From Clostridiaceae bacterium BRH_c20a (GTDB taxonomy: Bacteria; Bacillota; Peptococcia; Peptococcales; BICA1-8), in assembly GCA_000961765.1 (NCBI GenBank), contig LADT01000001.1, positions 62,001-126,000 of the forward strand: 64,000 nt of DNA, given 5' to 3'. Shown one piece after another: positions 3,060 through 47,655 of the stretch. Made by a program: the position numbers and the translations under genes. Position 1 is the first letter of the stretch. Every line of letters starts with the position of its first letter. Below the pieces are notes generated by a model. It ran no database searches and was not told where the DNA came from. It was given only the letters and a program-made list of their open reading frames with translations.

Positions 3060-3908
3060 TTATTGTTTATCTTTCAATTGCTTACGTTTCTTGCCTTCTG
3101 TCAGTTCCTTGTAGTTTTCTTTCGTCACGACTTTGGCTCCTGTTTTGGATTCGAGCTCTTTTCTCGCATTCCCGGCGACAGTACCACCTTCATGTGCTGC
3201 TGTAAAATTTTCTATAAACCCTTGAGCATCCCTGTTTCTTGCTATTTCTGTCGTAGAAGCCTCGCCAAGCATAGTAAAAATCAGTTCGAGGTCTGTCATG
3301 TGATCACGAAGATTATCTGTTGGCTTGTTTAGCTCTTTAAGCTTCTTGTATTCAGAGGGCGTCATTCCAAATGTTGCCCGGCTTATCTCTGCGGTTAAAA
3401 TTGAATATTCCTTTTGTTCTTTAAGTCCTCTCTTTTTCCACTCGTCGGTTAATTCATCACGGACTGCAATACCGCGCATACGTTTTTCAATCCAGTCATC
3501 GCTGTAACCTTTGATTTTATAGGTTTCTCTTATTCTCTTGGTAGCGAGTTCCGGATTTTCAATTTCTTCAAGTCTTTCATAACCGACTTTAGCCAGCCAG
3601 CGTTTAAATGGCTCCGCCTTTTGTGAAGGAATTGTTTGTATTATCCTCAATAGTGCTTCTGCATTTGCACAATCTGTGAGATATTTTTTGCCATCAGAAG
3701 CTTCCATTTTCAGTTGTACGATAAAATCGTACAACTCAACAAAACCTTCTTTTTTTAATTTCCTTTTCAGATCGCTCCAATATCTTCTTGGGTTCTCGGT
3801 ATCAGTAAGAATTTCAATGACATCTATTATTGAAAAATACCATTTTTGCTCATGTTCATTCCATTGAGACCGCACTTTTTTTGATTCAAAGAGTTTTATA
3901 TTGCTCAT
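3060..3908 (-). CDS. BRO-N / DinD-like phage-type protein
   Basis: The start MSNIKLFESKKVRSQW at 3908 was chosen because it aligns with the usual beginning of the family. The first ~110 residues are a Bro-N domain (WYFSIIDVIEILT, ..RRYWSDLKRKL..., LTDCANAEALLRIIQ, PFKRWLAKVGYERLEE), as in phage antirepressors and DNA-damage-inducible protein D. The C-terminal half has helical segments (GLKEQKEYSILTAEISRATFGMTPSEYK, shown here in pieces) typical of DinD-like proteins. It likely binds DNA; biological role unknown. The IS110 transposase stop lies only 34 bp upstream of its start, so the IS boundary falls between them and may have displaced its promoter. Confidence 0.75.
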   Translation of the reverse strand: MSNIKLFESKKVRSQWNEHEQKWYFSIIDVIEILTDTENPRRYWSDLKRKLKKEGFVELYDFIVQLKMEASDGKKYLTDCANAEALLRIIQTIPSQKAEPFKRWLAKVGYERLEEIENPELATKRIRETYKIKGYSDDWIEKRMRGIAVRDELTDEWKKRGLKEQKEYSILTAEISRATFGMTPSEYKKLKELNKPTDNLRDHMTDLELIFTMLGEASTTEIARNRDAQGFIENFTAAHEGGTVAGNARKELESKTGAKVVTKENYKELTEGKKRKQLKDKQ

Positions 3909-13133: not shown

Positions 13134-13218
13134 TCTTCCTTCGGCAACCCGGCTGTCATAGCTTATTAAAAAGCCTTAGACCCGTGGCTTTGCGTCTGCC
13201 GTTTTCACGACATTTGCC
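13134..13218 (-). promoter_or_regulatory. Cyclic-di-GMP-I (GEMM-I) riboswitch controlling the rhs operon
   Basis: The minus strand shows the conserved GEMM-I blocks in order: an ACGCAAAGCCACGGGTCTAA segment, a short helix (GGCTTTTTAATAAGCT), then ATGACAGCCGGGTTGCCGAA. These correspond to the P2/P3 junctions and the tetraloop receptor of the family. It lies about 70-150 nt upstream of the rhs start, with a terminator between. c-di-GMP binding should therefore set transcription of this secreted RHS protein, linking it to the sessile/motile switch. Whether the switch is ON or OFF cannot be decided by eye. Confidence 0.85.
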
Positions 13219-13412
13219 ATTTTCGAGAATTTATGTTCTTTTCTTACACTATACTACGCCATAACTAAAAATTTTCCCTTTGTATACTTGTCATCTTTTT
13301 CCAGCAATTTTCGATAAATAGTGTATAATATTTCACTCTCTAATAGCTACCGACTATTAGCTATTAGCCATTTTTAAACCTTTAAATATTTCCTCACTGC
13401 AAAGGGAAAACG

Positions 13413-16767: not shown

Positions 16768-16787
16768 CATCACCTACTATAACTAAA

Positions 16788-16926
16788 ACTACAAGGCAGG
16801 TCTCCTGGCTCGGCTTCTTCATTTAACATGCCTTCCCGGTATTCCAGTGGCTGATATGCTAAACTCCACCTTACAGTGGCGGGACCGCACCGGATTTCCA
16901 CCGGTTTCCCTATTCTCCTTTTAAAA
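16788..16926 (-). promoter_or_regulatory. Cobalamin (AdoCbl) riboswitch
   Basis: The minus strand carries the family signature: AACCGGTGGAAATCCGGTGC, then GGTCCCGCCACTGTAAGG (the near-invariant core), and at the 3' side the B12 box GAGCCAGGAGACCTGCC. It precedes cblT-cblS and explains repression of the salvage operon by sufficient cobalamin. Confidence 0.93.
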
Positions 16927-17161
16927 AAAGGCACCTAATAGTTAATTATGCTATTTGAGTAATATTATAGTTATTTAGTAATATTTAATCAAGCATTTTT
17001 TATTATTTTATCACGTCCACGGGCTTCTTATGCTTTCTTCTCTTCAAGGCTCCTGTTCTTGGATTTTGGAGATTTAAATAGAAATTCAATTCGTCTTCCT
17101 TATTTGTAAAATTCGGCACTTTGATTAGTCCTTCTCTTGTTATTAACTCTTGTAGACATGA

Positions 17162-36133: not shown

Positions 36134-37957
36134 CTACTCCACCGTCACACTCTTAGCCAAGTTTCTTGGTTGATCAACATTACAGCCTCTGGCTTTGGCG
36201 GCATAGTAAGAAATCAACTGCAAAGGTATTACTGTCAGAATCGGAGCTACAAAGTTATAAATATCCGGAATATAAAGAACATCATCCACATATTTACCTA
36301 CTTCGGTATCACCTTCTATAGCAATTGCCAATACTTCTGCATCCCGAGCTTTTACTTCCTTAATATTTGATAAGGTTTTATCATAGGTGTTTTTCTGAAC
36401 ACATAAGGCAATTACGGGTGTTTCCTTGGTAATTAACGCTAGTGTTCCGTGCTTTAATTCACCGGCGGCGTAGGCCTCGGCATGAATGTAGGAAATCTCC
36501 TTAAGCTTTAGAGAACCTTCCAAGGCTACTGCCCAGTCAAAGCCTCGACCGATAAAGAATGCGTCATGTTTTTCTTTAAATTCCTCGGCTATTTCTTTAT
36601 ATCTATCTACTTCATTTAAAACTCTGATAGCTGCTTCCGGTAGAGAGTGTAATGCATCGATAATTACCTTTGCTTCAGCTTCACTAACTACACCCTTAAG
36701 CTGACCAAGGTAGAGTGCCAATAAATATTCTGCTACCAGCATAGTTGTATAAGCTTTTGTTGATGCCACGGCAATTTCTGGTCCTGCCCAGATAAATACT
36801 ACAAAGTCAGCTTCTCGGGCGATGGAACTACCCACTACATTTGTAATTGCCAAAACACTAGCACCCTTATTCTTAGCTTCTCTTAGAGCAGCTAAGGTAT
36901 CCGCAGTTTCTCCGGACTGGCTAATAACAATAACCAGAGTTTCTTCATCGACTAATGGCCTCCGGTAGCGGAATTCAGAGGCAATATCTACTTCTACCGG
37001 AATACGTAAAAGATTTTCAAAAATACCTTTACCAACTAATCCTGCATGATAAGCAGTACCACAAGCAACGATATATACTTTTTTCCATTTATTTATGGTC
37101 TCCAGTGGCAGATGAAAATCTTCAAATTTAACTCTATTTTCTGCAATTCTGCCGCTTAAGGCTTTTCTAAAAGCAACCGGTTGTTCATGGATTTCTTTGA
37201 GCATAAAATGTTCATAGCCGCCTTTTTCAGCAGCTTCAGCATCCCAGGAGACATTAAATACTTCTTTATTTACTATTTCCCCGGAAATTGTTGTTATCTT
37301 TATTGTTTCAGGAGTGAGTACACAAACTTCTCCATCATTTATTAAATAGCATTTTCTTGTATGGGAAAGTATGGCTGGTATGTCGGAGGCAATAAAGTTC
37401 TCACCTTCACCAATGCCAATTACCAGGGGGCTATCTTTTCGAGCAGCAATAAGCTTATCGGGCTCGTTTTTGCAGATAACACCCAAAGCATAGGATCCAT
37501 GAATTTTATCTAAGGTCATTTTAACTGCTTCTTCTAAATTGCCTTTATAGTAATGCTCTACCATGTGAGCAACTACTTCGGTATCCGTTTCGGACGAAAA
37601 AATATGTCCTTGTTCTTCTAACCACTCCTTAAGTTCCATATAGTTTTCGATAATTCCATTGTGTACTACAGCAAAGTCTTCAGAACAACTGGTATGAGGA
37701 TGGGAATTTTCATCTGATGGTCTACCGTGAGTCGCCCAACGGGTATGACCAATACCAATATTACCAGTAGGGTTTTTACCAAGAAGCTTGCTTTCCAAAA
37801 AGGATAGTTTACCCTCTGCCTTAATAACCTGTAATTTGCCTTCCTTTAAAACTGCAACGCCAGCGGAATCATAACCACGATACTCTAATTTACGTAAACC
37901 TTCTACTAAAATTGGAGTAGCCTCTTTATTACCAATATAACCGACTATGCCACACAA
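36134..37957 (-). CDS. glmS: Glutamine--fructose-6-phosphate aminotransferase (isomerizing)
   Basis: A TTG start at 37957 behind AAGGAGG. The Ntn glutaminase domain begins with the catalytic Cys (MCGIVGYIGNKEATPILVEG), and two SIS isomerase domains follow (SQSGETADTLAALREAK, STKAYTTMLVAEYLLALYLG), ending DQPRNLAKSVTVE. It makes glucosamine-6-phosphate, the first step to cell-wall amino sugars. It is regulated by the ribozyme in its leader. Its 3' end is the recognition site of TnsD and carries the Tn7-like insertion directly behind it. Confidence 0.97.
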   Translation of the reverse strand: MCGIVGYIGNKEATPILVEGLRKLEYRGYDSAGVAVLKEGKLQVIKAEGKLSFLESKLLGKNPTGNIGIGHTRWATHGRPSDENSHPHTSCSEDFAVVHNGIIENYMELKEWLEEQGHIFSSETDTEVVAHMVEHYYKGNLEEAVKMTLDKIHGSYALGVICKNEPDKLIAARKDSPLVIGIGEGENFIASDIPAILSHTRKCYLINDGEVCVLTPETIKITTISGEIVNKEVFNVSWDAEAAEKGGYEHFMLKEIHEQPVAFRKALSGRIAENRVKFEDFHLPLETINKWKKVYIVACGTAYHAGLVGKGIFENLLRIPVEVDIASEFRYRRPLVDEETLVIVISQSGETADTLAALREAKNKGASVLAITNVVGSSIAREADFVVFIWAGPEIAVASTKAYTTMLVAEYLLALYLGQLKGVVSEAEAKVIIDALHSLPEAAIRVLNEVDRYKEIAEEFKEKHDAFFIGRGFDWAVALEGSLKLKEISYIHAEAYAAGELKHGTLALITKETPVIALCVQKNTYDKTLSNIKEVKARDAEVLAIAIEGDTEVGKYVDDVLYIPDIYNFVAPILTVIPLQLISYYAAKARGCNVDQPRNLAKSVTVE

Positions 37958-37992: not shown

Positions 37993-38297
37993 TTGACACC
38001 CTTTGTACCCGAAATTACTTTCGGGTTTTGTAATGCCTCTTTCGGTCATACAGTGACCGGGGAGCATCCGCCGAATTCTTCGATTAACTCCCACCCTCGT
38101 CAACCATCTAGGAAGTGACTAGTGACTGGTGGCTAGTGGCTAGTGAATGCACGATTTCGTGCCCAGTGACCAGTACTCAGTGCCCAGTGCTCAGTTGTCC
38201 AGTGATTAAAAAACTTATTATCGATAAGCCAATAGTCGGATTTCTCTAACTTCCAACGTCCAACATCTAACTTCTGATATCTGATGGTTCTGGCGCT
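37993..38297 (-). ncRNA. glmS self-cleaving ribozyme-riboswitch with an enlarged P1 loop
   Basis: The minus strand holds AGCGCCAGAACC at 38297-38286 (cleavage site and P1 5' strand), GGTTGACGAGGGTGGGAGTT (P1 3' strand, P2), AATTCGGCGGATGCTCCCCGG, GACCGAAAGAGGCATTACAA and the P4 arms CCCGAAA/TTTCGGG. P1 pairs 38283-38289 with 38102-38108 (AACCATC/GATGGTT). The loop between is 174 nt instead of a few bases and contains repeat sequence. The core is complete, so GlcN6P-dependent cleavage of glmS mRNA is expected. Confidence 0.93.
38115..38200. repeat. Degenerate 7-bp repeats (GTGACTA type) inside the ribozyme P1 loop
   Basis: GTGACTA GTGACTG GTGGCTA GTGGCTA at 38115-38142, then CCAGTGACCAGTACTCAGTGCCCAGTGCTCAG-type units (read in pieces) to about 38193, with a CACGATTTCGTG hairpin between. 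The same repeat type occurs at 41829-41925 and 47350-47391. Confidence 0.8.
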
Positions 38298-40842: not shown

Positions 40843-42136
<1,294 letters not shown>

Positions 42137-47319: not shown

Positions 47320-47655
47320 ACTTCTGGGATATGCTTCGAGGTTAGTTACTAGTGACTAGTGACTAGTGACTAGTGACTAGTGACTAGTGACTAGCTCAGA
47401 TTATGTTACTAATGGGACAGATTAAGGCTGAGGTTTAGGTTAAGTAATGATTTATTGTTTTTCTCAACCTTAGCCTAGCGAAGCGAAACCTTAACCTAGG
47501 AATTATACTGTAGAACTGTAGAACTGTAGGTACTATGCTTCTGCGGGCGAAGCCCCTTATGTATATTTTTTCAACACAAAACAACTATTGTCCTGCATAT
47601 TACAGCTTTACAAAAATATATATTATTAATTCAACCTATTTGCGGGGTAATTACT
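47320..47655. repeat. Repeat-filled intergenic region between dnaE and ytrH
   Basis: Six perfect tandem TAGTGAC heptads lie at 47350-47391. AAGGCTGAGGTTTAGGTTAAG at about 47425 is partly complementary to CTCAACCTTAGCCTAGCG at 47464, followed by AAGCGAAACCTTAACCTAGG. CTGTAGAA units repeat at 47508-47530. Divergent promoters for dnaE and ytrH must lie here. Confidence 0.85.

Follow-up and report, generated by a model that had tools for sequence, protein, structure and literature searches.

What has entered the P1 loop of the glmS ribozyme encoded in this 64,000-nt stretch of DNA (hereafter the window), where did it come from, and could the ribozyme still work with it? An Rfam cmscan search identified a single glmS ribozyme in the window (RF00234; minus strand, 38308-37984; 94.9 bits, E 8.6e-21), with a match that spans the full model (positions 1-167) against a gathering cut-off of 37 bits, and no second copy was found in the 4.51-Mb genome (G000). 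The gene that follows on the minus strand (36134-37957) encodes GlmS (TIGR01135, 829.5 bits), whose nearest named relatives, 63-66% identical, come from Peptococcaceae metagenome bins. It starts 27 nt downstream of the ribozyme, which places the latter in a 5' leader position from which it is predicted to regulate the gene. On sequence and context, the element is classed as a glmS ribozyme, and all core elements are present, as an earlier note on this DNA had stated: in the alignment to RF00234, the core keeps its consensus positions and the A|G site of cleavage is preserved. The predicted cleavage position, A(-1)|G(+1) at 38296..38297, lies within UUUUAAAA|GCGCC (RF00234 consensus, AAAGCGCC), where glmS ribozymes are expected to cleave. 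The P1 strands AACCATC (38283..38289) and GATGGTT (38102..38108), located on the minus strand by the RF00234 alignment, by folding and by an alignment of 61 glmS ribozymes, form seven perfect pairs, again as previously described, and the distance between them defines a loop insert of exactly 174 nt (38109..38282). A c-di-GMP-I riboswitch (13140-13228) and a cobalamin riboswitch (16778-16953), both on the minus strand of the window, carry no repeat insertions.

The earlier note had described the insert as filled with one kind of repeat. The repeats are real, with TRF detecting a period of 7 nt at 38114-38146 and 38159-38195, but they belong to two heptamer families, which we call B (GTTRGAN) and A (ACTGGNC/CACYAGT). 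Reading 5' to 3' along the RNA, the insert begins with a type-B array, (GTTRGAN)n, at 38244..38276, identified by pattern matches and hairpin pairing as the left arm of a truncated hairpin, followed by about one unit of its complementary right arm (ATCCGAC, 38241-38235, placed by hairpin pairing). After ~30 nt of unique sequence comes the A element, which consists of a left arm of ACTGGNC units (38159..38204; TRF and BLAST matches), an apical hairpin, GCACGAAATCGTGC (38149..38162; sequence and folding), and a right arm of CACYAGT units (38114..38145; TRF, BLAST and pattern matches), all on the minus strand. The A element is thus a nearly whole hairpin whose arms pair with mismatches, while the B element has lost most of its right arm. 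No S23/PF05635 reading frame lies within the 174 nt.

Both families occur well beyond the ribozyme. Used as a query (175 nt), the insert gave 48 BLAST matches in the genome, nearly all of them to the A part. A 17-nt type-A pattern, searched with two mismatches allowed, occurred 354 times in G000, a count for which the reversed-pattern control was uninformative, since reversing the unit gives something similar to another heptamer of that family. The same pattern occurred 180, 55, 57 and 3 times in four other genera of the family and 0-3 times per genome in three genomes from outside the family but within its order. The type-B pattern was found 26 times in G000, compared with 2 for its reversed control. 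Within the window, TRF detected the A units of the insert again at 41845-41919 and 47343-47394, corresponding to a second type-A element that immediately precedes the phosphofructokinase gene (41830..41920, minus strand) and to a (CTAGTCA)7 array upstream of dnaE (47343..47394, minus strand). Together with the 48 genome matches, these copies bear out the previous statement that the insert repeats are of the kind found in neighbouring intergenic regions. The distribution is also strongly non-coding: in 400 kb of sampled genome sequence, ORFs covering 77% of it, 21 period-7 arrays lay outside ORFs and none inside, an outcome with a probability of ~3e-14 (0.227^21) under random placement. Periods of 6 and 8 were rarer than 7 in this sample, and periods of 4, 5 and 9-13 were nearly absent. 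Hexamer arrays of the CTNANC type lie beside the heptamer arrays at 42020-42110 and 47400-47520 in the window, and B-type arrays occupy the spacers of a tRNA cluster elsewhere in the same genome (L252, G000:C42:4300-5900).

We compared the P1 domain across 61 aligned glmS ribozymes, a set purposely enriched for long P1 loops, in which the median P1 domain was 27 nt and that of the window ribozyme, at 188 nt, was the second longest. P1 pairs 1-5 were formed in 58-61 members of this set, while the type of pair varied at pairs 4-7; the P1 helix is thus kept by compensatory change, including in ribozymes with long inserts. Among the 60 nearest genomes, glmS matches were mostly 136-165 nt long. In the family itself, the P1 domain is short in G001 and enlarged with other repeats in G002, G003 and G004, so that the inserts of relatives either differ from the one described here or are absent; a repeat-free insert shared by all relatives, which the earlier note had named as a refutation, is thus not what is seen. 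When 398 genomes of the phylum were searched, the listed glmS matches included at least nine of 200 nt or more, with a maximum of 339 nt (G391), and in all eight enlarged ribozymes fetched, which were chosen for their length, the extra sequence lay in P1. A-type heptamers were present in the P1 loop of two of these eight, both from other families (G153 and G201). The longest P1 domain that we encountered, 206 nt in L164 (G391:C57:179411-179749), consists of three ~60-nt hairpin units in which the repeat is of another type, and CTNANC hexamers fill the P1 loop of G003 and G004.

Because enlarged P1 domains with different content occur in three of the four related genera examined, and A arrays occur in the P1 loop of unrelated lineages, P1 is a recurrent tolerance site for insertions. 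The enlarged P1 domains of the three genera can mean either repeated insertion at a tolerant site or one old insertion whose content was later replaced. The previous proposal that a spreading repeat had entered a catalytic RNA at the one place that tolerates it therefore holds in part: the repeat is dispersed and, among the enlarged ribozymes examined, the extra length is always in P1. It was too narrow, however, in that similar loop insertions occur in other lineages, in RNase P RNA and in rRNA.

That heptamer arrays of other sequence lie in the P1 loops of related and unrelated ribozymes is also what would be expected if the loop merely tolerated local growth, with the heptamers arising in place by replication slippage and no mobile element being involved. 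We nevertheless consider such microsatellite growth unlikely, because A and B units recur at dozens of unlinked sites and in sister genera, because the copies are built as inverted arms around a spacer, with B copies sharing the ends CTGGAGG...CCTCYAG, and because two unrelated unit families adjoin in a single loop.

The earlier note had further suggested that the insert may change folding kinetics, of which the predicted structures give no sign. The insert folds no more stably than shuffled sequence (z -0.48), which rules it out as an unusually stable RNA structure, and selection on A elements for stability of the RNA strand through G-U pairs was ruled out as well, the opposite strand being equally or more stable. 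In thermodynamic predictions of the isolated domain, the mean pairing probability of P1 was 0.46, compared with 0.67 when the insert was shuffled; the P1-closed structure lay only 0.4 kcal/mol above the minimum. Since P1 is paired at 0.46 and its closed form lies so near the minimum, the predicted folding agrees with interference and with its absence alike; the insert may compete with P1. No promoter pair lay wholly within the insert among five promoter-like pairs in a 600-bp region, one of which runs from the P1 3' strand into the core. Likewise, no terminator was found in the insert, the sole terminator-like site of the region being on the plus strand in the 3' part of the ribozyme. Modelled in this way, the insert is probably roughly neutral.

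Two readings would give the insert a larger effect. It could have been recruited to tune the ribozyme, for instance through a delay in the cotranscriptional folding of the core or through an RNase III site that parts the ribozyme from the mRNA. Synthesis of the core is indeed delayed by 174 nt, enlarged P1 loops recur in the family, and rRNA intervening sequences are RNase III targets in Coxiella (PMC4990558). We give recruitment little credence, though, as both the content and the length of the insert differ in every genus, G001 has a short loop despite belonging to the same family, the fold is no better than that of shuffles, and the insert holds neither a terminator nor a whole promoter pair. 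Alternatively, the ribozyme could be a dead relic broken by the insert, as the low P1 pairing probability of the isolated domain might suggest. This we regard as very improbable: core positions and P1 arms have been kept, the score of 94.9 bits falls within the 88-111 bits of insert-free relatives in the same class, and the element still immediately precedes the genome's only glmS copy. With P1 closing again below the insert and the catalytic core left outside, folding and cleavage should still be possible, and we infer that the ribozyme is active in GlcN6P-dependent self-cleavage.

Gene-bearing relatives of the heptamer elements are found in other structured RNAs. The RNase P RNA of three members of the same family (G001, G002 and G004) contains an insert of ~400 nt in which inverted B arrays enclose a PF05635 gene, which encodes the four-helix-bundle '23S rRNA intervening-sequence protein'. 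In the Rfam alignment of G004 and G092, the insert lies between the two arms of a hairpin that corresponds to P12 of bacterial RNase P RNA. The same arrangement of PF05635 gene and inverted B arrays occurs in the RNase P RNA of G092 and G164 and in the 23S rRNA of G101, G142 and G161. RNase P RNA genes with PF05635 in the P12 loop, up to ~770 nt long, were seen in two distant families (L197, L198, L199, L236 and L238). The rRNA operon of G101 carries three B hairpins of ~100 nt without a gene, one each in the 16S rRNA, the spacer and the 23S rRNA, and a fourth, PF05635-bearing copy in the same 23S rRNA; these four elements lie at 665-769, 2226-2329, 3431-3527 and 4447-4887 of L250 (G101:C45). 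The ends CTGGAGG...CCTCYAG are common to the gene-less B hairpins of G101 and the ORF-less intergenic B hairpins of G000. An origin of the insert from an interrupted 23S rRNA of its own genome was ruled out; given its assembled length of 2989 nt, the G000 23S rRNA has no gene-bearing insert.

We then asked how generally PF05635 genes are associated with arrays by scoring periods 5-12 in 200 nt on each side of 40 PF05635 genes and 41 control ORFs of the same phylum. Arrays of the same period on both sides were found at 20 of the 40 PF05635 genes (half thus lacking them at the threshold used) and at none of the controls (Fisher p 3e-8), although some of the 40 genes are close relatives and the control ORFs come from other genomes of the phylum; a few misplaced PF05635 gene starts would have lowered this count rather than raised it. 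Any strong array was found at 25/40 PF05635 genes compared with 4/41 controls (p 6e-7). The arrays are diverse: A-type arrays accompany PF05635 genes in G001 and G099, CACTGG variants do so in G000 and G004, and some genes have period-8 or period-11 arrays, the latter being of the TTAAACAATGG type in L233 and L235. At G000:C58, G000:C72 and G004:C150, several different PF05635 genes lie within a few kb of each other, with array periods of 6, 7 and 8.

In a protein tree, nine PF05635 proteins with B arrays in structured RNA formed one clade with a support of 100/100, the B label of one member (L234) having been given from its sequence and not from its locus, while A arrays were not tied to one PF05635 clade. 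PF05635 matches in G000 lie on contigs C50, C58 and C72, with none at the glmS locus, and none of the G000 copies placed in the tree fell in the B clade. The linkage of heptamer arrays to PF05635 genes is new here: no published link between PF05635 and heptamers was found in the literature searched, and we know of no PF05635 link for the cyanobacterial STRR heptamers discussed below. PF05635 proteins were originally discovered in rRNA intervening sequences.

Since the A and B families both have gene-bearing relatives, the glmS insert resembles an intervening sequence without a gene, and it is because the gene is absent that we do not file it as one. Taken together, the insert is most plausibly interpreted as a pair of decayed elements without ORFs, related to rRNA intervening-sequence elements. 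We put a probability of roughly 70% on the account that the P1 loop received two ORF-less hairpin elements, kin to PF05635-bearing families, and that such sequence persists where it does little harm. On this account, an intact glmS ribozyme would have acquired in its P1 loop two elements that lie one after the other, a truncated B hairpin and a nearly complete A hairpin. In the larger forms of the A and B families, inverted heptamer arrays enclose a PF05635 four-helix-bundle gene, and the elements would persist at sites of low harm, such as intergenic regions and the apical loops of peripheral hairpins (glmS P1, RNase P P12, 16S and 23S rRNA). The elements presumably move, and the flanking arrays and shared clade suggest that PF05635 proteins may help them to do so. 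The insert offers a natural experiment on how much added sequence a catalytic RNA can tolerate at P1, and the occurrence of the arrays both around PF05635 genes and without a gene in RNA loops makes the role of the intervening-sequence protein, and the movement of intervening sequences, directly testable.

That dispersed repeats can insert into rRNA and RNase P RNA is already known; for a riboswitch or the glmS ribozyme, we know of no such report, and none was found in the literature searched. The closest precedents are the rRNA intervening sequences with an S23/PF05635 gene known from Leptospira and Coxiella; for those in 23S rRNA helix 45, an origin as mobile-element remnants has been proposed (PMC4990558). 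Like them, the glmS insert sits in a peripheral hairpin loop of a structured RNA, and it may share their complementary terminal arms, its A arms pairing with mismatches and its B right arm being almost lost; the gene-bearing forms in this phylum have heptamer arms of the B family. It differs in having no gene and a truncated B arm, and in its host RNA, a riboswitch-ribozyme. STRR heptamers in the RNase P RNA of heterocystous cyanobacteria (Vioque 1997) are similarly degenerate tandem heptamers that are dispersed in the genome and found within a ribozyme RNA gene as well, but they belong to another phylum and host RNA and probably have another unit. Expansion segments in the 5S, 16S and 23S rRNA of Peptococcaceae and Thermoanaerobacterium (PMC7812874) resemble the present case in that they are found in related bacteria, at helix ends of several structured RNAs, and are near-identical within a genome; in the available portion of that report, however, they are not connected to heptamer arrays, PF05635 genes or ribozymes. 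REP/RAYT and REPIN systems (PMC3116915) likewise comprise short intergenic hairpin elements and a linked gene flanked by the same repeats, whereas the linked gene here encodes a four-helix bundle (PF05635) instead of a Y1 transposase and the units are tandem arrays of 6-8 nt. A broader generalization, which we offer tentatively and lean somewhat against, is that PF05635 proteins are trans-acting partners of short-unit hairpin families, such that each protein lineage would propagate arrays of its own, gene-bearing or gene-less, to transcribed regions and to structured-RNA loops (rRNA, RNase P RNA and the glmS ribozyme), in a manner similar to RAYT/REP but with an unrelated protein.
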